Below, one piece after another: positions 339 to 12,916 of a stretch of DNA of 64,000 nt. The notes beneath the pieces are model-generated. The model ran no database searches, was not told the origin of the DNA, and worked only from the letters and a program-made list of their open reading frames with translations. Position 1 is the stretch's first letter. Each line of letters opens with the position of its first letter. The position numbers were made by a program, and so were the translations under genes. Source of the stretch: an uncultured Porphyromonadaceae bacterium (lineage in GTDB: Bacteria > Bacteroidota > Bacteroidia > Bacteroidales > Muribaculaceae); contig CAMWNP010000001.1 of assembly GCA_947175645.1 (NCBI GenBank), positions 148,801-212,800 of the forward strand, in the 5' to 3' direction.

Positions 339-1595
339 ATGGCAAAAAAGACTAATAATTACGGTAATTGCTGTAGTTTCTGCGGACAGCCAAGCAGCGA
401 AAGTGAATTTTTCATTCCTTCGCCCATTAGCAATCAGACTTTCATCTGCTCAAATTGCGTGGAGCAGATCGAGATGATGATGAATGAATTCCGTAACGAA
501 AACTCAAACAGAAAGACCGCCAAGTTTGACAATTCTCTGAAAAAAATCCCTACTCCTAAAGAAATATGTGCGTTTCTTGATCAATACGTAGTAGGGCAGG
601 AAGAGGCAAAGAAATATTTGTCTGTGGCAGTCTACAACCACTACAAGAGACTCGGACAGAGTCTTGATGATGACACTGAAATTGAAAAGAGCAACGTAAT
701 TCTCGTCGGACCTACGGGAACCGGGAAAACTTTGCTCGCCAGAACAATAGCCCGCCTTCTGAACGTGCCGTTCACTATTGTTGATGCAACGGTACTTACT
801 CAAGCCGGATATGTAGGTGAGGATATTGAATCTCTTCTAACCCGACTGCTGCAGGCTGCTGACTATGATGTTAAGGCTGCAGAACGTGGAATTGTGTTCA
901 TTGATGAAATTGACAAAATTGCCCGAAAAGGTGATAACCCGTCAATAACACGTGATGTCAGCGGGGAGGGTGTTCAGCAAGGGTTGCTCAAACTTCTGGA
1001 GGGCTCAATAGTAAACGTACCGCCTCAGGGTGGTCGTAAGCACCCGGAACAGAAAATGATACCGGTTGACACCAAAAACATTCTGTTCATTTGTGGAGGA
1101 GCGTTCGATGGTATAGAACGTCGCATCGCGCAGCGCCTAAATACCCATTCAGTCGGTTATGCATCTGATAACTCTCGGAAAAGGATTGATGAGAAAAACA
1201 TAATGAAACATGTGGCCCCACAGGACTTGAAAGCGTTCGGACTCATACCGGAAATTATCGGACGTCTTCCCATCATTACTAATCTTGAGCCTTTGTCAAG
1301 AGAAGCGCTGAGAAACATCCTCACAGAACCTAAAAATGCCATAATCCGTCAGTATATTAAACTGTTTGATATGGATGGCATTAAACTGGAGTTTACACCT
1401 GAGGCACTTGACCTGATCGTTGATAAGGCGGTGGAATATAAACTCGGTGCGCGTGGCTTGAGATCGATTGTTGAGACTGTTATGGTCGATGCAATGTTTG
1501 AAGCCCCATCAATGAAGAAAAAGAAATTCGTGGTTGATGCCGACTACTGTCTGCAGAAATTACGTGAAGCAAATTTTGAAACCCAAATCCCTTAA
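339..1595 (+). CDS. clpX: ATP-dependent unfoldase ClpX
   Basis: 418 residues, the normal ClpX length. The N-terminal zinc-binding domain has CxxC pairs at Cys12/Cys15 and Cys37/Cys40. The AAA+ core shows Walker A GPTGTGKT at residues 124-131, pore loop GYVGED, Walker [10 protein letters not shown] and a sensor-2 region LGARGLRS. ClpX unfolds tagged substrates and threads them into ClpP. The loop that docks on ClpP, IGF in Escherichia coli ClpX, aligns here with VGY (in [11 protein letters not shown]). From memory this form occurs in other Bacteroidales. recQ follows after 91 bases. Confidence 0.98.
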
Positions 1596-1686: not shown

Positions 1687-3861
1687 ATGAAGAACGAACT
1701 TATTGATGCTCTGAAATATCACTTTGGATTTGACAAATTCAAAGGCAACCAGGAAGCCATTATCCGCTCCCTTATGGAGGGGCATGATACATTTGTTCTG
1801 ATGCCTACAGGAGGTGGAAAATCATTGTGTTACCAACTTCCTGCACTGTTGATGCAGGGTACTGCAATAGTGATTTCACCTCTTATTGCCCTCATGAAGA
1901 ACCAGGTTGATGCAATGCGGAATTTCTCGGAAGATGATGGTGTCGCGCACTTCCTCAATTCTTCTTTGAACAAGTCTGCCATCGACATGGTGAAACACGA
2001 TGTTCTGGCCGGTAAGACAAAGTTGCTCTATGTCGCTCCCGAGTCATTGACGAAGGATGAAAACATTGAGTTCCTGTCTACTGTGGATATATCTTTCTAT
2101 GCCGTTGACGAGGCTCATTGTATATCGGAATGGGGACATGATTTTCGCCCGGAATACCGCCGGATCAGACCTATTATTAATGAAATTTCCCAGCATCCGG
2201 TAATAGCACTCACGGCAACCGCTACGCCAAAGGTGCAGCATGATATCCAGAAAAACCTTGGCATGTCTGATGCCCGTGTGTTCAAGTCATCCTTTAACCG
2301 GGAGAACCTTTATTACGAAGTACGGCCTAAAACCGCAAATGTTGATAAAGATATTGTAAGGTTTATCAAGAATAACCCTGGTAAATCCGGGATTATTTAC
2401 TGCCTCAGCAGAAAGAAAGTCGAGGAACTGGCGGAACTTCTTAAACTCAATAACATTGAGTCACTGCCTTATCACGCGGGTATGGATGGACAGCAACGTT
2501 CTGAAAATCAAGACGCCTTCCTTCTGGAAAAAGTGGATGTCATTGTGGCCACTATTGCATTCGGTATGGGTATCGACAAGCCTGATGTGAGATTCGTCAT
2601 ACATTATGACATGCCCAAATCTCTTGAAGGATATTATCAGGAGACTGGTCGTGCCGGACGTGACGGTGGTGAAGGACGCTGCCTTACATTCTACTCTTCA
2701 AAAGACCTTCAGAAAATGGAGAAATTCATGCAGAGCAAGCCACTGACCGAACAGGAAATTGGAAAGCAACTCCTTTTGGAAACGGCGAGTTATGCTGAAT
2801 CTTCTGTTTGCAGACGGAAAACTTTATTGCATTATTTCGGAGAATATTTTGATTCTGATAATTGTGGAAACTGCGACAACTGTTTAAATCCCAAAAAACA
2901 AGTGGAAGCGAAAGACGATTTATGTGCCGTTATCGAAACGGTGATTGCACTTAAAGAAAAATTCAAAGCAAATCATATTATTGACGTCATGCTTGGAAAA
3001 AATACCAATGATGTCAAATCTTATCATCACGATGAACTCGATGTGTTCGGATGCACCGACAAGGCTGATGACCGTTACCTTAATTCGGTTATTCGTCAGG
3101 CCGTCATTGCTGGCTACCTCGAACGTGATATAGAAAATTTCGGACTCATCAAACTGACGCCGGAAGGTGAAAAGTTCCTCAAATCACCTAAATCTTTCAA
3201 GATCGTTGAAGATAATGATTTTAACGAGGAAGAAGAACCGGTAATGGCTAAGTCAGGTGGCTCCTGTGCTGTTGATCCTGAATTGTACTCTATTTTAAAA
3301 GATCTGAGAAAAAAACAAGCCAAAAAACTTGGACTTCCCCCTTACGTCCTTTTCCAGGATCCTTCTCTTGAAGCGATGGCAACCACATATCCCATCACTA
3401 TGGAAGAACTGGCAACCATCCCCGGAGTTGGAACAGGCAAGGCTAAACGCTATGGCGAGGAGTTCCTTAAGGTTATAAAAACTCACGTTGAAGAAAATGA
3501 GATTGAACGTCCGGAGGATCTCCGTGTGCGCAGTTTCGCTAACAAAAGCAAACTGAAAATCTCAATTATTCAGTCAATCGACCGAAAAATTGCCCTTGAT
3601 GAGTTTGCTGAATCTAAAGGTCTTGAATTCAGCGAGTTACTCGACCAGATTGAGGCAATTGTGTATTCCGGAACAAAAATCAATATCAACTATTTTATTG
3701 ATGAAGTAATTGATGAGGACCGTCAGGAAGAAATTTTTGACTATTTCAGAGAAAGTGAAAGTGATGACATTAATGAAGCCATAAGTGAACTCGGGGCAGA
3801 TTGCACTGAGGATGAAATAAGACTTGTAAGAATAAAATTCATTTCTGAAATGGGCAATTGA
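1687..3861 (+). CDS. recQ: ATP-dependent DNA helicase RecQ
   Basis: 724 residues. Superfamily-2 helicase core with Walker A MPTGGGKS at residues 39-46 and a DEAH box (Asp141-His144) followed by CISEWGHDFRPEYR, the RecQ aromatic-rich loop. The RQC zinc module follows with Cys residues in SVCRRKTLLHYFGE and NCGNCDNC. An HRDC domain lies at about 540-610 (LPPYVLFQDPSLEAMA, IPGVGTGKAKRYGEEF). About 110 acidic residues after HRDC form an extra tail that resembles other Bacteroidota RecQ proteins. RecQ unwinds DNA 3' to 5' during recombination and fork repair. The next gene starts 36 bases later, so read-through into the chaperone cassette is possible. Confidence 0.95.
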   Translation: MKNELIDALKYHFGFDKFKGNQEAIIRSLMEGHDTFVLMPTGGGKSLCYQLPALLMQGTAIVISPLIALMKNQVDAMRNFSEDDGVAHFLNSSLNKSAIDMVKHDVLAGKTKLLYVAPESLTKDENIEFLSTVDISFYAVDEAHCISEWGHDFRPEYRRIRPIINEISQHPVIALTATATPKVQHDIQKNLGMSDARVFKSSFNRENLYYEVRPKTANVDKDIVRFIKNNPGKSGIIYCLSRKKVEELAELLKLNNIESLPYHAGMDGQQRSENQDAFLLEKVDVIVATIAFGMGIDKPDVRFVIHYDMPKSLEGYYQETGRAGRDGGEGRCLTFYSSKDLQKMEKFMQSKPLTEQEIGKQLLLETASYAESSVCRRKTLLHYFGEYFDSDNCGNCDNCLNPKKQVEAKDDLCAVIETVIALKEKFKANHIIDVMLGKNTNDVKSYHHDELDVFGCTDKADDRYLNSVIRQAVIAGYLERDIENFGLIKLTPEGEKFLKSPKSFKIVEDNDFNEEEEPVMAKSGGSCAVDPELYSILKDLRKKQAKKLGLPPYVLFQDPSLEAMATTYPITMEELATIPGVGTGKAKRYGEEFLKVIKTHVEENEIERPEDLRVRSFANKSKLKISIIQSIDRKIALDEFAESKGLEFSELLDQIEAIVYSGTKININYFIDEVIDEDRQEEIFDYFRESESDDINEAISELGADCTEDEIRLVRIKFISEMGN

Positions 3862-3897: not shown

Positions 3898-4857
3898 ATG
3901 GCTCTCCCTCGCTTCATAATCTCCAATCCGTTCAGGATTTTAGGTATTCCTGCTAACAGTACGGAAAGGCAGATTAGTGCGTCGTTAGCCCGACTGCATG
4001 CTTATGCAAGGGTGGGGAAGTACTGTCCGAGTCCATTGGAATTCCCTGCCATATTCGGTCCTTTAAACAGGAATACTTCCATATTGGAGAGTTGTTCACG
4101 GTTAAGATATTCCACACCATTGCGTGTCAGAAACGCCATGGTGTGGTTTTCTGTTTCAACCGCTGCGGATTCATCTGCATTGGATTTTCTCAAAGAAGGG
4201 AACATAGATTCCGCAAGATATGTTCTTGACACGGCACCTCGGAATTACTCAGCGATTCTGAACTCCGCTGTGATAGATTTTTCTCATGATAACGTTGAAG
4301 ACGGAACGAAAAAAGTCATATCACTATTACAGGATGAGTATCTTCGGAAAGAATTCCTTTCTTCGCAGTCAGTAGAGGATGATTATATTGAATATGACCT
4401 CTTGCAGATGTTTATAGAACTCCTTTCGGAAACCTTCCCTTTTGATTCCGTTTCTTTATGGGTCAGAGAATCTGCTGAAGCAGTCGCTATCTTAAATTCA
4501 TTCCACTCACGGAAACTGACGAATATAATTGAAAACAGATTGTCTGTTGTGAAGTCATTCTCAGGTACCGACTATTCCTCATTGTTAAATTCCGTTGATG
4601 ATATTAAGTCATTGCTTGAAAGAACTGAGGAAATCTCTGTTGTGACGGATCATGCATCTTTACTTTTGCGAGACACCATTTCAAGAACTTTGCTTGAAAA
4701 GTCAATCTCTCTCTACAACTCAGGAGTAAACGTTTCAGAGAGCAGAATACTGTTACGTATAATCAAAGACGCATCCTTGATAACGCTAAACACAGCCCTG
4801 AAGATGCGTTGTAAAGAAAACTATTCACTGTTACTAAAAAATATATCCGGACAATGA
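3898..4857 (+). CDS. J-domain-like protein without HPD, first gene of an Hsp70 cassette
   Basis: 319 residues without signal peptide or membrane segment. The N-terminus (about residues 8-80) begins NPFRILGIPANSTERQISA, which matches helix I and the start of helix II of a J domain, and a third helix-like part (ILESCSRLRYSTPLRVRNA) ends in a WF pair. The HPD tripeptide that stimulates Hsp70 is absent; the helix II-III loop reads YARVGKYCPSP. The remaining 240 residues look alpha-helical and I do not recognise them. The stop overlaps the start of the next gene (ATGA), and an Hsp70 gene ends the cluster. That context supports a degenerate J-like partner. The J-domain assignment is an inference from the N-terminus and could be wrong. 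Confidence 0.6.
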   Translation: MALPRFIISNPFRILGIPANSTERQISASLARLHAYARVGKYCPSPLEFPAIFGPLNRNTSILESCSRLRYSTPLRVRNAMVWFSVSTAADSSALDFLKEGNIDSARYVLDTAPRNYSAILNSAVIDFSHDNVEDGTKKVISLLQDEYLRKEFLSSQSVEDDYIEYDLLQMFIELLSETFPFDSVSLWVRESAEAVAILNSFHSRKLTNIIENRLSVVKSFSGTDYSSLLNSVDDIKSLLERTEEISVVTDHASLLLRDTISRTLLEKSISLYNSGVNVSESRILLRIIKDASLITLNTALKMRCKENYSLLLKNISGQ

Positions 4858-5354
4858 TTTACATTTTTGGATTTATCGGATTCTTCATTCTCATTGTTAT
4901 AGCCACGTTGTTATTCTGTTCTGTCAGGAGAAACAACCGCGATGCTCAAACCATACGTGATTTAAGGATTAGATTGTCAAAGGCCGAGGATGCGTGTAAA
5001 GATATAAACCATAATCTGAATCTGGCTGTATTGAACGAAATATCAAGAATAGAACAGAACCTGCGGTCGATGGATTTCACTACTAAAGGTGTTACAAACT
5101 TATCTAATCGCGTGCTTGCAATGAAAGCCATTTATTCCTCTATCGGGTATGAATTGCCTGAACTCATTGGTAAACCCTATGAGAACTCCGAAAATCACCG
5201 GATTACAATGAAGTTTGATGATTCTCTTGACCCGGGGAAGGCCATAGTGACAAAAATTATACGTCCGGCCATACTCTTTAATGGTGTAATGATTCAAAGT
5301 GCAAATATCATAGTATCATATAATGAAGACAAACAGGATAATTTACGGAATTGA
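4854..5354 (+). CDS. membrane-anchored GrpE-like protein, putative Hsp70 exchange factor
   Basis: 166 residues. Residues 2-24 form one hydrophobic helix followed by RRNN, giving a membrane anchor with the rest in the cytoplasm. Residues 28-95 are heptad-like and charged (coiled coil). Residues 102-156 resemble the GrpE beta domain: G106-x-P-Y with a His nine residues after the Gly (GrpE has GxPFDPxxH), then a DPG turn at 126-128 and a beta-rich end (SANIIVSY). Overall order, length and position between a J-like gene and an Hsp70 gene fit a GrpE-type nucleotide exchange factor tethered to the inner membrane. It overlaps the upstream gene by 4 bases and the downstream gene by 32. Confidence 0.6.
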   Translation: MIYIFGFIGFFILIVIATLLFCSVRRNNRDAQTIRDLRIRLSKAEDACKDINHNLNLAVLNEISRIEQNLRSMDFTTKGVTNLSNRVLAMKAIYSSIGYELPELIGKPYENSENHRITMKFDDSLDPGKAIVTKIIRPAILFNGVMIQSANIIVSYNEDKQDNLRN

Positions 5355-7821
5355 TCTCGGTACCACAAACTCCGCTATCTCACGGATGATTAACGGAGTG
5401 CCCGTTACACTGAAAAGCGTTTTGCAACGGCCCGTTATACCCTCATGCGTGGCTGTTACCAGAAAAGGGAATGTTGTTGTGGGTGACAAAGCGCTTAATC
5501 TCCTTCAGCGTGACTATGCGAACTCCTTTGTTTCAGGAGAATTTTCATTTAACTCTTTTATTGAGTTCAAACGGCAGATGGGTAGGGATGTACGTTATTA
5601 TTCTTCAATCATCAACCGGTATTTCTCTCCTGAGGAACTTTCCGCAGAAGTGCTTATGGAACTGAAACGAATGGTTTTTGATGACGATGTCCGGGCAGCC
5701 GTAATTACTGTTCCTGCAATGTTTGACAATAACCAGAAGGATGCTACCGTAAGAGCAGCCAGAAAAGCCGGTTTTGACTATGTCGAACTCATCCAGGAGC
5801 CATTGGCGGCATCTGTTGCCTACGGTCTGACTGCTGACAAGGAAAACAAGTATTGGATAGTTTTTGACATGGGGGGAGGCACTTTTGATGTTGCTCTGAT
5901 GCGTATGCGGGACGGCATTGTCACTCCACTTGATACCACCGGTAGCAACCACTTGGGGGGTAAAGATATTGATGATGCCATTATTGACAATCTCATAATC
6001 CCGCATCTGAAGTCCGGGTACTGTCTGGATGATGTTTTGGCAAAACAGTCTCAGCAGTTCAAGGCTCTTTTGAAACATAAAGTGGAGGAATGTAAAATCG
6101 CATTATCAACAGTTGAGCAATTCGCCATTGAATCTGATACGGATGAAGATCTCGGGCTTGATGATAATGGAATTCCTGTGGAACTTAATTTTGTCTTATC
6201 AAGAAACGTTCTTGACAGAATACAGGAGCCGGTTTTCCGTAAGGCTATTGATCTTACAATGGCTATGCTGGAAAGAAACGGAATCGCTCCTTCCTCTATT
6301 CGTGACATTGTTCTTGTCGGTGGTCCCACTATGGCTCCTTTGTTACGTGAAATGCTGCTTTCCCATATACCGGCAGTAATTCGAAACGATGTTGATCCCA
6401 TGACTTGTGTCTCCCAAGGTGCCGCTATATACGCCTCCACGGTGAGTCTGCCCGATCACATACTCAATAAATCACGAACACCTGAAAAAATCCAACTTGA
6501 GGTTGTCGCTCGCGGCAACTCGGCAGAGATGTCGGAATTCGTATCTGTGAAAATCTTGCCAAAACTCTCTGATTTGCCACCTGAACCTTGGGTTACTGTG
6601 GAATTTTCGCGTAATGACGGAATGTGTACTACATCTCCCGTAAAAATTGATCAGTCAGGTGACGTTGTGGAACTCCCGCTAAAAAAAGATACGGTTAATA
6701 TCTTTTCTATAAGATGTTTCAACTGGCAGGGTAATCAGGTTGAATGTGAACCTTCGGAAATATCGGTTATTCAGGGCCTTGACGGTATTGCGGATGCGGT
6801 AATCCCGTTATCTTTGGGAATTGGTGTAAGCAATAACGATAATGATGAGGTATTCAAGGAAATACAGGGTTTGCAACGTGGAGCGCATCTTCCTGCTCAT
6901 GGTGTGGTCCTCGGCTTAAGGACACGTCAGGACATCTATCCTGCCGACTCTGATTCTGAAATACGTATTTCCTTGTATCAGAAAGAGATATATAAGGATA
7001 TGCTCACACGAACAATTCTATGCAATCACCTTTATGACATCATTTTAACCGGTGATGATTTGCCGGCAATGCTTCCGATGGGAAGTGAGGTAAACCTTCG
7101 GTTGCATGCTGATAAATCCGGCAGAATAGACAATTTCATTGTGGATATTCCCTTCCTTGATTATGAGATTGACGTCACTGACAGGGTTACATCTGCAACT
7201 AAAAGCGAAGTCCCCTTGCATATTGTTATCCACGAAGCATCAACAGCAATTAGTAAGGCGCGTCAACTCGGAAACAATCAATACGTTTCTGAGATTTCAT
7301 CTCTTGTCAACCATTTCCGCGATTGCGATAGTCGTGAGCAGAAGGATATCCTTTTTGAACAATTGTGTCAACTTAGTGAAAAGATTGACTTGGAATTCAA
7401 CAAGGATAAACTGAAGCGCGGCATAAAACGTCTTAAGGCGTTGTTCCATTCTTACTGCAAGGATGTTGAGAAGTATGGTCAGCCAAAGGATCATGCCGCT
7501 GTACCGCGAATCCGTGAAAAAATGGATAGCCTGATTGAATCAGCCGATTACAAGGCTGTCTCGGAATACACTGAACAACTCTGGCTGCTTGATTACCAAC
7601 TTGCGAAAATTGACTACTTTATCTCATGGATTTACAGTTGGAACTGCGATTTTGAAAACATGGGATGGCGCGATCCCGTCAGGGCTAAATTACTGCTGGA
7701 AAAGGCTATGTGTTTGATTGATGCTGAGAAGTCTGTCCGTGATCTGACCCCGGTTATTGAGGATCTCAAGTCTCTGCTCCCGGAATATCAGATACCTGTA
7801 AATGACATTCTTCAGGGTTGA
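5323..7821 (+). CDS. divergent Hsp70 (DnaK family) chaperone with an inserted domain
   Basis: 832 residues. The actin-like ATPase domain (about 1-385) is well conserved: GIDLGTTNS at 9-17, FDMGGGTFDV at 181-190 and VGGPT at 332-336. In DnaK the substrate domain starts about 20 residues after the GAA motif; here GAAIYAST (about 365-372) and IPLSLGI (494-500) are some 125 residues apart, with a beta-rich insert between. The substrate-binding beta domain can be followed to about residue 620 (RGAHLPAH, ISLYQKE, DKSGRIDNFIVD). A long helical lid or tail fills 620-832 and lacks the EEVD-like or DnaK-type end. The start overlaps the preceding gene by 32 bases, which suggests translational coupling. 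Substrates are unknown. Confidence 0.9.
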   Translation: MKTNRIIYGIDLGTTNSAISRMINGVPVTLKSVLQRPVIPSCVAVTRKGNVVVGDKALNLLQRDYANSFVSGEFSFNSFIEFKRQMGRDVRYYSSIINRYFSPEELSAEVLMELKRMVFDDDVRAAVITVPAMFDNNQKDATVRAARKAGFDYVELIQEPLAASVAYGLTADKENKYWIVFDMGGGTFDVALMRMRDGIVTPLDTTGSNHLGGKDIDDAIIDNLIIPHLKSGYCLDDVLAKQSQQFKALLKHKVEECKIALSTVEQFAIESDTDEDLGLDDNGIPVELNFVLSRNVLDRIQEPVFRKAIDLTMAMLERNGIAPSSIRDIVLVGGPTMAPLLREMLLSHIPAVIRNDVDPMTCVSQGAAIYASTVSLPDHILNKSRTPEKIQLEVVARGNSAEMSEFVSVKILPKLSDLPPEPWVTVEFSRNDGMCTTSPVKIDQSGDVVELPLKKDTVNIFSIRCFNWQGNQVECEPSEISVIQGLDGIADAVIPLSLGIGVSNNDNDEVFKEIQGLQRGAHLPAHGVVLGLRTRQDIYPADSDSEIRISLYQKEIYKDMLTRTILCNHLYDIILTGDDLPAMLPMGSEVNLRLHADKSGRIDNFIVDIPFLDYEIDVTDRVTSATKSEVPLHIVIHEASTAISKARQLGNNQYVSEISSLVNHFRDCDSREQKDILFEQLCQLSEKIDLEFNKDKLKRGIKRLKALFHSYCKDVEKYGQPKDHAAVPRIREKMDSLIESADYKAVSEYTEQLWLLDYQLAKIDYFISWIYSWNCDFENMGWRDPVRAKLLLEKAMCLIDAEKSVRDLTPVIEDLKSLLPEYQIPVNDILQG

Positions 7822-10154: not shown

Positions 10155-10727
10155 GTGAGATCCTCCAACTTCAATACATATTACGATAACATTGATGCCA
10201 ATTTGTGGCGCAATCTATGCGTAGATAAAGGAGTATTGCTTAAATATGAAAAAGGAGATCTTTTTGCAGAAGAAGGTCGGAGTGCGAAATATTTGGGCTA
10301 CATTAAGTCTGGCTCTCTGAAATATGTTGTTTATGCATCCGATGGCACCGAGAGGGTTGTCGGCCTGGAATTTTCCGGTGGATTTGTCGCTGATTTTCCA
10401 TTCTCCCTCTACGGTAAAAAATCGCGTGTTTCAATAGTTGCGGTTACTCCATGCGAGATTTATTGCATCTCCGCTAAGGAAATCGGATCAAAAATGAAAT
10501 CTGATGCTGAATTATATAGAACTATTGCCGAAAGCAGTATGGCTCTTTTTGACACCACTTATAACCGGTATATCGACCTTTACATTAAATCTGCAAAAGA
10601 AAGATATTGTGAACTTGTTGAAAAACATGAAGACATTTTCTCGATTTTCTCCCTTAAGGACATTGCCTCTTACCTTAACATTACTCCTACTTATTTGAGT
10701 AGACTGAGAAAAAATAACAGCGAATAG
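10155..10727 (+). CDS. Crp/Fnr-family transcriptional regulator
   Basis: 190 residues with an N-terminal cyclic-nucleotide-binding-type beta barrel (about 25-125; KGDLFAEEGRSAKYLGYIKSG) and a C-terminal helix-turn-helix (KDIASYLNITPTYLSRLRK, about 167-186). This is the short Crp-like architecture common in Bacteroidales. There is no Cys cluster, so no Fnr-type iron-sulfur sensing is indicated. The start is GTG at 10155: the frame has a stop upstream and no ATG before the barrel. The start lies 11 bases after the T run of the structured RNA. The ligand and targets are unknown. The outer-membrane gene 86 bases downstream has its own promoter. Confidence 0.85.
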   Translation: MRSSNFNTYYDNIDANLWRNLCVDKGVLLKYEKGDLFAEEGRSAKYLGYIKSGSLKYVVYASDGTERVVGLEFSGGFVADFPFSLYGKKSRVSIVAVTPCEIYCISAKEIGSKMKSDAELYRTIAESSMALFDTTYNRYIDLYIKSAKERYCELVEKHEDIFSIFSLKDIASYLNITPTYLSRLRKNNSE

Positions 10728-10754
10728 TGTGTAAATCCTCGATTCTCAACTTTG

Positions 10755-10787
10755 TTTGAGAGTTAAGTATTTTTTTTCGTAACTTTG
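10755..10787 (+). promoter_or_regulatory. Bacteroidota-type promoter for the outer-membrane gene
   Basis: TTTG at 10755-10758, 21 bases, then TAACTTTG at 10780-10787. This is close to the full -33/-7 consensus, 26 bases before the ATG at 10814. Confidence 0.65.
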
Positions 10788-10813
10788 CATATAAAACTTA
10801 ATGAATCATAAAT

Positions 10814-12916
10814 ATGAAACGAAAAATTTTCATAATATGTACATTGCTTTGCTCTTTGAAAGTATTTGGTCAGAATGTTGAATCCGATTCAATCAAGACC
10901 AAGGATCTTGATGAAATTGTGGTTGAAGCACGCACTCAACGTGTGATAGAACGTGGGGTGGAATATATACCGGCAAAAAAGATTAAAAAAGCCGCCATTG
11001 ATGCTACGCAACTTTTAGAATTAATGAATATCCCGCAACTTGACATAACCCCGGGCAGTATGACCGTTAAGACTTATACAGGAAAGAATGTTGGCATGTT
11101 CATTGATTATATGGAGGCGACTGAGGAGGATTTAAAGGGATTACGTCCGGAAGATGTTCTTAGGGTTGAAGTATTACAATATCCTGAAGACCCTCGGTTC
11201 GGAGGACAGGCTAATGTTGTCAATTTCATTATGAGGAAATACGAATGGGGCGGATATACCAAATTGACTGCCATTGGTGCTACACTAAACTTTGACAAAG
11301 GTGAAGGCATACTGTATTCTAAATTTGTAAAAGGCAAGTGGACATTAGATGCCAACACAATAGGAAATATTGAATATTACAACACTTCACCGGCCTGTGA
11401 AACTGAAACTTTCCGGAATATTAATATTGGGAACAAACATTTTGATGAATTAGTCCGTACTACTAAATCCGGTGACGACTATATTCAGCAAAGTAATTCT
11501 CAATCGGTTTCATTTCGTGCTTCGTATAACACGAAATCAACAAGGGTTACTCATTCTGTCGCTTATAACCGTACAGGAAATCCGCATACAAGAAATTGGT
11601 CAGATCTCTTTTATTCCGATAATGTTTTTTCTGCATCTTCATCTCTGTCTAACGAATCAGGTCAGACAATATCACCCAGGTTAAGAGGCTACTATTACTT
11701 TGTTTTACCGAAAAATAATTTTTTGATTGCGTCATGGAGTTTCACGTATGCCAGTACACGAAGAAATTCTTCATATCTGCTTGGAGAGATGACTCCGATA
11801 TTAAACAATAACAAAGAAACGGTATACGAGCCCGTTGTTACAGTTCAGTATTCAAAGAAGTTTTCTCACAACAATACATTCAGAACATCTTTAATGAGTT
11901 ACAACACTGTCTATCACACTTATTATGAAGGGTCTTATGACGGATTGCAGAAACTTCTTTCATCTGAAAATATGATGTTCCTTGAATATTTGCAGAATTG
12001 GCAATCCGGCCTAAGCCTATATTCGCGCATTGGTGTATCTTATGTTATCGGCCGTTTGAACGGCGTTAATACCCTGGAGCAATGGAACCCTCGACTTGGT
12101 CTGCAATTGGAATATAAGATAAATGACAAGAACTCCGCTTCAATTGAAGGATGGTGGGGCAATAATCATCCTACTCCCGCCTCTTCAAATTCCGCTATTG
12201 TGCAGAGCAATGAACTTCTTTGGCTACAAGGCAACCCCGAACTTCGCAACACAACATTTACTACGGCTTCAGCCTCATATACCTTTATGCCGACGAATAA
12301 GTTGAACCTCTCGGCTACTGCGGAATACCATGGCTATTTGAACAAAACTGCATATGAATATTTTTCTTTAGAGGGTCATGACGGTCTTATTCGCAAAAAG
12401 ATAAACAGTGGAGACTTCTTTGATTTCTCGGGATATGTTTCTGCGTCTGTTAAACTATTCAGAAATTCTCTTTCACTACGTGCTACGGGAAAAATAGCAC
12501 ACCTGAAAAGTACCGGCATTGATGCTCAATCAATGAATATTGTAACGGCAAATGTTCAAGCCAATTACTATTTCAAGAATTTTTCATTCATTCTGTATTA
12601 TCAGACACCTAATAAAAACATCGCTCCTTTTAACAATGGTGTCAGAATTCGATACAAGAGTACCTATGGCCTTTTAGCAAATTATTCTGTTAGTGATTTC
12701 AAACTCGGCTTGCAGTTCCGGAACTGGTTCAACAAATATCAGTATTACTACTATTTTGATTCGGAACGATATTCATCTCACGGTTGGCAATGGAGCAGCG
12801 ACCTTGCCCGATCTGTTCAAATTACAGTTTCTTATACTTTACCTTATGGAAAGAAGGTGAAGCGAAATAACGAAATTCAAACTACAATAGAAAGCAATAG
12901 TGCAATCTTAAAATAG
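10814..12916 (+). CDS. outer-membrane beta-barrel protein, TonB-receptor-like
   Basis: 700 residues. A signal peptide (MKRKIFIICTLLCSLKVFGQ) is followed by a plug-like region of about 100 residues with LDEIVVEA, VGMFIDYMEA and LRVEVLQYPEDPRFGGQANVVNFIM. These match the plug of outer-membrane proteins in the TonB-receptor superfamily. Residues 140-700 are alternating aromatic beta strands ending near ITVSYTLPYGKK. No carboxypeptidase-like N-terminal domain and no SusD partner is present, so it is not a standard SusC pair. Substrate or partner unknown. It may be controlled by the Crp/Fnr protein encoded upstream, by proximity only. Confidence 0.8.
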   Translation: MKRKIFIICTLLCSLKVFGQNVESDSIKTKDLDEIVVEARTQRVIERGVEYIPAKKIKKAAIDATQLLELMNIPQLDITPGSMTVKTYTGKNVGMFIDYMEATEEDLKGLRPEDVLRVEVLQYPEDPRFGGQANVVNFIMRKYEWGGYTKLTAIGATLNFDKGEGILYSKFVKGKWTLDANTIGNIEYYNTSPACETETFRNINIGNKHFDELVRTTKSGDDYIQQSNSQSVSFRASYNTKSTRVTHSVAYNRTGNPHTRNWSDLFYSDNVFSASSSLSNESGQTISPRLRGYYYFVLPKNNFLIASWSFTYASTRRNSSYLLGEMTPILNNNKETVYEPVVTVQYSKKFSHNNTFRTSLMSYNTVYHTYYEGSYDGLQKLLSSENMMFLEYLQNWQSGLSLYSRIGVSYVIGRLNGVNTLEQWNPRLGLQLEYKINDKNSASIEGWWGNNHPTPASSNSAIVQSNELLWLQGNPELRNTTFTTASASYTFMPTNKLNLSATAEYHGYLNKTAYEYFSLEGHDGLIRKKINSGDFFDFSGYVSASVKLFRNSLSLRATGKIAHLKSTGIDAQSMNIVTANVQANYYFKNFSFILYYQTPNKNIAPFNNGVRIRYKSTYGLLANYSVSDFKLGLQFRNWFNKYQYYYYFDSERYSSHGWQWSSDLARSVQITVSYTLPYGKKVKRNNEIQTTIESNSAILK

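Follow-up and report, generated by a model that had tools for sequence, protein, structure and literature searches.

In the excerpts of PMC13012618 cited here, residue D35 of DnaJ contacts R167 of DnaK, H33 contacts L391 of the interdomain linker, and the D35–R167 salt bridge drives activation; the DnaK mutant R167A is non-functional and is suppressed by DnaJ D35N. The sections of a review that deal with the HPD motif (PMC13254874) describe it as essential for Hsp70 stimulation, and they also mention an HPD-less viral protein that binds Hsc70 as well as designed J-domain analogues. HscA and HscC are reported to lack the GrpE signature, and HscC is not expected to use GrpE (PMC8215388, in its part on these proteins). 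We analyzed a stretch of 64,000 nucleotides (referred to as the window) from an uncultured bacterium of the family Muribaculaceae (contig CAMWNP010000001.1), which carries a cassette of three genes encoding a J-like protein (gene 1), a membrane-anchored protein with a predicted GrpE fold (gene 2), and a divergent Hsp70 (gene 3). With a probability of roughly 0.55, we read this cassette as a dedicated, private, membrane-tethered Hsp70 machine of the inner membrane that has its own co-chaperones and is insulated from DnaK and DnaJ.

Compared to the canonical pair, the cassette appears, as judged from alignments, to be new in two linked respects: HPD has given way, in most members to K/R-V-G-K, and its contacts on the Hsp70 are changed too. 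Gene 1 carries from residue 10 a J-like stretch, NPFRILGIPANSTERQISASLARLHAYARVGK, without HPD. Its family was aligned as the window protein plus 70 of 84 dereplicated J-like proteins (those omitted were mostly second copies and very long proteins), and HPD was found in the first 140 residues of none of the 71 aligned proteins. At the place of HPD-K, the 71 sequences read K (44), R (6), S (9), N (5), and others in the first column; V (61) or I (9) in the second; G (60), N (7), or S (3) in the third; and K (52), R (13), or Q (4) in the fourth.

On the Hsp70 side, 25 genomes of the phylum supplied 26 DnaK-type proteins, and all 26 have R167, N170, T173, and L391. The cassette Hsp70s, in which E. 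coli DnaK numbering was placed by motif, number 87, including three pairs that are more than 95% identical, and 84 of them have letters at positions 167, 170, and 173. The place of R167 is taken by E in 80 of these 84, by S in two, and by D and V in one each; N170 is replaced by Q in all 84, and T173 by I (59), V (24), or L (1). At the L391 place the 87 proteins read Q (32), A (24), K (18), L (1), and others (12), and L392 is kept (L in 77, I in nine, F in one). The four motif residues of the J-like proteins paired with E167 (n = 69) carry a net charge of +2 in 48, +1 in 15, 0 in five, and −2 in one. Serine at position 167 occurs only in loci L072 and L075, and only these two have a J-like motif that starts with D; because their Hsp70s are sisters (76.5% identical), this pairing counts as one event. 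As both sides of the contact are changed, canonical DnaJ should not drive the cassette Hsp70, nor should gene 1 drive DnaK; the absence of R167 in itself makes canonical DnaJ an unlikely activator.

The likeness of gene 1 to J domains was examined by profile and by predicted structure. The gene 1 profile matched a profile of 46 J-domain sequences over 26 columns corresponding to helices I–II (E = 3.2e-5, probability 73%, score 28.9) and one of five J domains with E = 8.2e-6; for comparison, no score exceeded 16.45 among 20 column shuffles or 11.99 among six other controls and the reversed profile. The predicted model (predicted local distance difference test, pLDDT, 94.9) shows helices at residues 11–15, 23–38, 60–70, and 73–80, followed by a helical-repeat body. 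Neither PF00226 nor any other Pfam family matched gene 1 at E ≤ 1, and the J-domain family was not among the 10 Pfam families matched by 71 relatives. Fold searches with gene 1 returned helical repeats, so they did not confirm the J fold and do not by themselves exclude a J domain; among the Foldseek matches listed was the TPR protein P58-IPK, aligned along its length; its chain in 2y4t includes a J domain as well. Whole-length profiles searched against PDB sequences had coiled coils and TPRs as their top matches. The first-pass annotation had described gene 1 as starting like a J domain without HPD; the missing HPD and the resemblance over helices I–II stand, and the structure searches gave no J domain among the matches listed.

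These results bear on a different view of gene 1, namely that it is a TPR-like scaffold whose J domain is degenerate and non-activating (Pam16-like), the Hsp70 being run by the exchange factor alone or by another activator. The loss of HPD throughout the family would fit this view, as would the TPR-like and other helical folds that the structure searches gave; moreover, HPD-altered J proteins are described as presumably nonfunctional, HPE being the sole replacement that seems to be tolerated (relevant sections of PMC13254874). However, the K/R-V-G-K motif is itself conserved, the Hsp70 contact residues have changed in step with it, and a three-sequence J-domain profile detected no canonical J domain in the loci scanned save in the DnaJ loci themselves. 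We regard this scaffold view as unlikely.

The C-termini of gene 1 relatives differ: 49 of 71 have a hydrophobic segment, 15 have a CFI-box (14 of these without the segment), and eight, the window protein included, have neither. The gene 1 protein of family genome G119 ends in a hydrophobic segment. Some modules contain two J-like genes, and locus L015 (3172–8116) has one of 1103 amino acids.

Gene 2 is composed of one hydrophobic segment near its N-terminus, helices, and a beta-rich C-terminal domain. Its predicted model (pLDDT 87) has a GrpE fold: the first 13 matches in the PDB were all GrpE chains (best E = 2.4e-5). At the level of sequence the relationship is faint. The profile-profile match to GrpE gave E = 2.4e-4 with a probability of 44%; neither PF01025 nor any other Pfam family matched gene 2 at E ≤ 1, and for genes 1 and 2 alike no NCBIfam or PADLOC family was found at this threshold. 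Of 71 gene 2 relatives, 69 have a predicted membrane segment (the alignment comprises the window protein and 70 of the 71), and the side of the internal segment that bears the GrpE domain is more positive in 61 of 67. In most GrpE-like proteins of the complete modules described below, a coiled-coil-like stretch precedes this segment. The earlier proposals that gene 2 is GrpE-like and that the putative exchange factor is tethered to the membrane thus agree with the predicted fold, the predicted segment, and the charge bias.

Gene 3 matches PF00012 with E = 8.3e-61 and keeps the ATPase residues D8, K70, E171, D194, T199, and D201, which upholds the first-pass view of a real Hsp70 with intact ATPase motifs. 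It scores far below the NCBIfam equivalog cut-offs for DnaK (228.9 of 822.55 bits) and HscA (212.2 of 708.55 bits). The GrpE-signature loop is present and lengthened in the cassette Hsp70s, with 16–18 residues compared to 15 in 25 of 26 DnaK-type proteins and nine in the remaining one. The profile of the C-terminal half, searched against PDB sequences, had helical and designed proteins as its top matches. A composition of an inserted beta domain plus a DnaK-type beta domain looked plausible by eye and was set aside, since the similarity was not significant.

The same genome encodes further chaperones. Its only PF00226 DnaJ and its only PF01025 GrpE lie side by side on contig C9, away from the cassette, and there are two more Hsp70s, a DnaK-like one on C18 and a third of 518 amino acids on C2. 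At the latter locus (L003:530–3940) a 321-amino-acid protein of unknown kind precedes the Hsp70 and a 291-amino-acid protein with a C-terminal hydrophobic tail follows it; in the alignment, this Hsp70 carries A where DnaK has R167, and its GrpE-signature loop is short. The C2 genes are possibly a second private Hsp70 set.

The three cassette genes are not together by chance, as they co-occur across the genomes of the family. The Hsp70 was found at E ≤ 1e-50 in eight of 150 genomes of the family (own genome included), and gene 1 in seven, all among these eight; in the eighth, G049, the contig starts inside gene 2. The gene 2 search also matched eight genomes, seven of them Hsp70-bearing; its remaining match (G011, E = 9e-5) lies in a 620-amino-acid TPR-like protein and was judged spurious by eye. 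Across the order, the profile of the Hsp70 C-terminal half matched 10 of 247 genomes (own included), among which L051–L053 are distant and L050 is a contig fragment. The distant Hsp70 sets at L053:1483–5528 and L052:4648–10589, with V at the R167 place, lie near genes that look methyltransferase- or HNH-like by eye; L053 also has a gene of 111 amino acids that looks GrpE-like by eye, and another gene stands where the J-like one would be.

A scan of one genome per species yielded 278 relatives, of which the best 80 were used for counting. Of these, 74 are labeled Bacteroidota, and the others Clostridia (two), Desulfovibrionaceae, Aeromonadales, Dojkabacteria, and Akkermansiaceae, labels that may be wrong where genomes are bins. 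In other genera, the gene order is J-like, GrpE-like, Hsp70, some or no small genes, a kinase-AAA+ fusion, and a TerB-like gene. Where enough DNA was available (counts without dereplication), the Hsp70 has a J-like gene upstream in 68 of 68 loci and a GrpE-like gene in 67 of 68, which answers the question, raised in the first-pass annotation, of whether the three genes co-occur across Bacteroidota. Downstream, 62 of 64 loci have the kinase-AAA+ fusion and 55 have the TerB-like gene; where both sides are covered (58 loci), the set of five is complete in 48. Both this larger module and the changed HPD-contact residues of the Hsp70 had been missed at first pass.

One kinase-AAA+ fusion that was tested matches Pkinase and AAA, and Walker A was found in 77 of 78. 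At the HxD position these 78 proteins read Asp in 22, Glu in 36, and another residue in three, the pattern not being found in 17; as the catalytic Asp is so often missing, many of the fusions probably carry a weak or dead kinase. The TerB match was weak in the one protein tested (E = 0.004). Other genes accompany the module in some loci. A cluster of small membrane proteins, one of which was tested and matches DUF6804, lies near or inside it in 25 of 82 loci, most often (17) right after it (for example, L135:15942–16253). Another cluster, whose proteins look by eye like lipoproteins, was seen in 19 of 82 loci and within the module in 15 of them (for example, L125:11944–12630); the one member tested had no Pfam match over the cut-off.

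The window cassette is a reduced form of this module, the window genus having kept the chaperone core only. No kinase-AAA+ fusion was found at E ≤ 1e-20 in nine genomes of the genus (own, G014, G121, and six others), where the profile matched nothing but the AAA region of proteins some 700 amino acids long, taken for FtsH. The TerB-like gene was not found in the own genome, G014, or G121 in a search that had no positive control.

At the recQ site, the three genes lie intact on the plus strand (3898–7821), with overlaps of 4 nucleotides between genes 1 and 2 and of 32 between genes 2 and 3, as the first-pass reading of overlapping genes had it, and the end of recQ is 36 nucleotides from the start of gene 1. 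Among nine genomes of the genus, recQ was found at threshold in eight, and the cassette follows it in three (own, G014, and G121; in G121 the gene after the cassette is not glnS). In the five cassette-free recQ regions, recQ and glnS are directly adjacent in four, and G094 has other genes there. The cassette is thus a presence/absence module at the recQ site. In 93 related stretches, in which a few loci occur twice, clpX and recQ gave no match and clpP (L057) and glnS (L066) one each. The idea that the position behind clpP, clpX, and recQ, among quality-control genes, is meaningful was therefore given up, since the context varies among relatives and recQ adjoins glnS in four of five cassette-free regions. 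As for clpP itself, it is expected before the start of the window and was seen by eye at the corresponding place in G014. Further downstream, at 10155–12916, two open reading frames were classified by eye: one for a Crp-like regulator is followed by one of 700 amino acids that is outer-membrane-barrel-like.

Since the kinase-AAA+ and TerB-like genes were not found and genes 1 and 2 are shortened, the window copy might be taken for a decaying, functionless fragment of the larger module, and in G121 gene 2 is an open frame without a membrane segment. This is very improbable. The frames are intact in both the window and G014, which share gene order and place and whose Hsp70s are 66% identical, and the window protein retains all of the ATPase residues checked.

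Table 1. Positions of the cassette genes, their main parts, and the genes upstream (coordinates of the window)
Feature	Position	Strand	Basis or remark
Gene 1, J-like N-terminal region and helical-repeat body, 319 amino acids	3898..4857	+	
J-like region of gene 1, residues 10–84 (NPFRILG ... VWF)	3925..4149	+	profile-profile match to J domains over helices I–II; conserved columns
R38-V39-G40-K41 of gene 1	4009..4020	+	on HPD-K of DnaJ if the helix I–II match runs on ungapped
Gene 2, membrane-anchored protein with predicted GrpE fold, 166 amino acids	4854..5354	+	
Hydrophobic membrane segment of gene 2, residues 4–22	4863..4919	+	hydropathy
GrpE-like helix pair and beta domain of gene 2, residues 54–157	5013..5324	+	
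Gene 3, divergent Hsp70, 832 amino acids	5323..7821	+	
Hsp70 nucleotide-binding domain of gene 3, residues 8–372	5344..6438	+	PF00012 match
E155 of gene 3	5785..5787	+	at the place of DnaK R167 (HPD contact)
clpX	339–1595		upstream of cassette
recQ	1687–3861		upstream of cassette

The patchy distribution of the Hsp70 in family and order has also been considered in the light of phage defense. The full module could be an alarm or defense device in which the Hsp70 and its co-chaperones restrain the kinase-AAA+/TerB effector, or assemble it upon phage or envelope stress, the window copy being a remnant or a regulator. Several loci invite this explanation. In one BREX locus (L048:80–17181), brxC and pglX flank a full module, and a five-gene module on a Haliscomenobacter plasmid is directly beside brxL and pglZ (L209:5187–17113); PADLOC confirmed BrxA, BrxB, BrxC, PglX, BrxL, and PglZ. 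Neighbor clusters that are tyrosine-recombinase-like and RhuM-like by eye occur in six of 82 loci each. In addition, Kaur et al. describe conflict systems in which Hsp70, GrpE, and DnaJ fusions surround a GTPase (PMC7159879, in excerpt). PADLOC families matched numbered 76 for 139 neighbors (a random part of 277) versus 37 for 126 control proteins (part of 181), a difference that leans toward defense, but these figures count redundant models rather than proteins, and among the 25 families listed for each set, named defense systems appear in both.

Other results argue against such a device. With genes 1–3 themselves, the sole PADLOC match was a weak one of the Hsp70 to PDC-M61B (E = 0.0096). 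The best 25 of 184 Pfam families in the 139 neighbors, which were searched without controls, are mostly TPR and housekeeping families and include no restriction, CRISPR, or integrase family. Among 119 stretches, including 20 controls, the BREX proteins of L048 and L209 have no match outside their own loci, and in the window genus the kinase-AAA+ and TerB-like genes were not found (nine and three genomes, the latter search lacking a positive control). We consider a defense device improbable, and the Pfam, PADLOC, and BREX comparisons did not show that the module belongs to defense islands in general. The L209 record annotates gene 1 as CFI-box-CTERM protein and gene 2 as septum formation initiator. 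A phage origin was rejected: the C-terminal half of one relative's Hsp70 had no match in 50,697 phage records and matched one of 72,556 plasmids. Of two scans of viral contigs with family alignments, the first gave no match and the second two; a GrpE search of viral contigs gave none.

A private machine at the inner membrane would work as follows. First, the GrpE-fold protein would be tethered by its N-terminal helix with the exchange-factor domain in the cytoplasm, where it would hold the Hsp70 at the membrane and release its ADP. Second, the J-like protein would touch the Hsp70 through a remodeled interface, in which HPD-K has mostly become K/R-V-G-K, R167 has become Glu, and L391 has become Gln, Ala, or Lys, and its helical-repeat body would deliver or present clients. 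Third, the coiled-coil-like stretch of the GrpE-like proteins of complete modules would be placed in the periplasm; with this placement, the complete module may link a signal from the envelope to the chaperone cycle. We infer the joint action of the three proteins, as well as topology, exchange activity, coupling to the ATPase, clients, and orthogonality, from sequences and predicted models. A more specific version, somewhat doubtful at present, is that these exchanges at the HPD and at its contacts make a J–Hsp70 pair that works without HPD, a charge-changed orthogonal switch at the inner membrane with a transmembrane GrpE that senses the envelope through its outer coiled coil.

A number of observations weigh against the proposed machine. 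The J-domain profile match covers 26 columns and ends before the motif, so that the pairing of the motif with HPD-K is an ungapped extension; no plain J domain appeared among the best 50 of 547 Foldseek matches of gene 1, nor among the 50 VIA matches listed. The linker alignment is gapped around L391, and a contact of N170 and T173 with the J domain is presumed by us, neither residue being named in two papers searched for them. The charge pairing is loose: among rows with E167, three start the motif with Glu and others with an uncharged residue, and the distant sets L051–L053 read P, V, and V at the R167 place. For the Hsp70, the cleft-bridging residues K55 and R56 of DnaK are mostly replaced; the PF00012 match stops at residue 372, and the hhalign score of 16.5 for the substrate-binding domain against DnaK was exceeded by two of 10 shuffles. 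The hydropathy rule behind the membrane segments is crude and flags eight of 89 Hsp70s too, and G119 has J-like and Hsp70 genes without a GrpE-like gene. Finally, the lack of HPD may leave a J-like protein inactive or make it inhibitory, as in the case of Pam16 (PMC13254874, section on this protein).

Since a conserved HPD-less J-like protein is linked here to a contact-changed Hsp70, one can test directly whether the switch can be driven through a different interface. Anchoring a GrpE fold in the membrane would be a novel means of positioning an Hsp70 and perhaps of gating it, and the pair, if orthogonal, would also serve as a tool. No publication on this cassette was recognized by title among the matches listed in searches of the open-access literature.

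Compared to described systems, the cassette shares its three-part logic with DnaK–DnaJ–GrpE, together with the GrpE fold of gene 2, the Hsp70 ATPase residues, and the GrpE-signature loop. It differs in lacking HPD and R167, in having the exchange-factor fold in the membrane, and in an Hsp70 of about 830 amino acids whose C-terminal half is unrecognized. HscC of E. coli is likewise an additional Hsp70 whose private partners, DjlB and DjlC, are anchored in the membrane, and the plasma membrane is its proposed place of action (PMC8215388, part on HscC); there, however, anchoring falls to the J proteins, which carry HPE (PMC13254874, in excerpt), whereas the cassette encodes and anchors an exchange-factor fold. 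The Pam16/Pam18–mtHsp70 import motor also places an HPD-less J-like protein with an Hsp70 at a membrane, in that case at the import channel (PMC13254874, section on the motor), but no HPD-bearing partner J protein was seen in the cassette loci, and gene 1 has a large helical-repeat body. DnaK2 of M. xanthus and the GrpE MXAN_6672 form a private Hsp70–GrpE pair in one operon, and the part of the report that presents them mentions neither a J-like gene nor a GrpE membrane anchor (PMC11019930). GAP1-N2 GTPase conflict systems resemble the cassette in having an accessory Hsp70 set in the gene neighborhood and, as far as the cited excerpt describes them, differ in being GTPase-centered, in occurring mainly in Actinobacteria and Firmicutes, and in fusing the DnaJ domain to an FNIII protein (PMC7159879).

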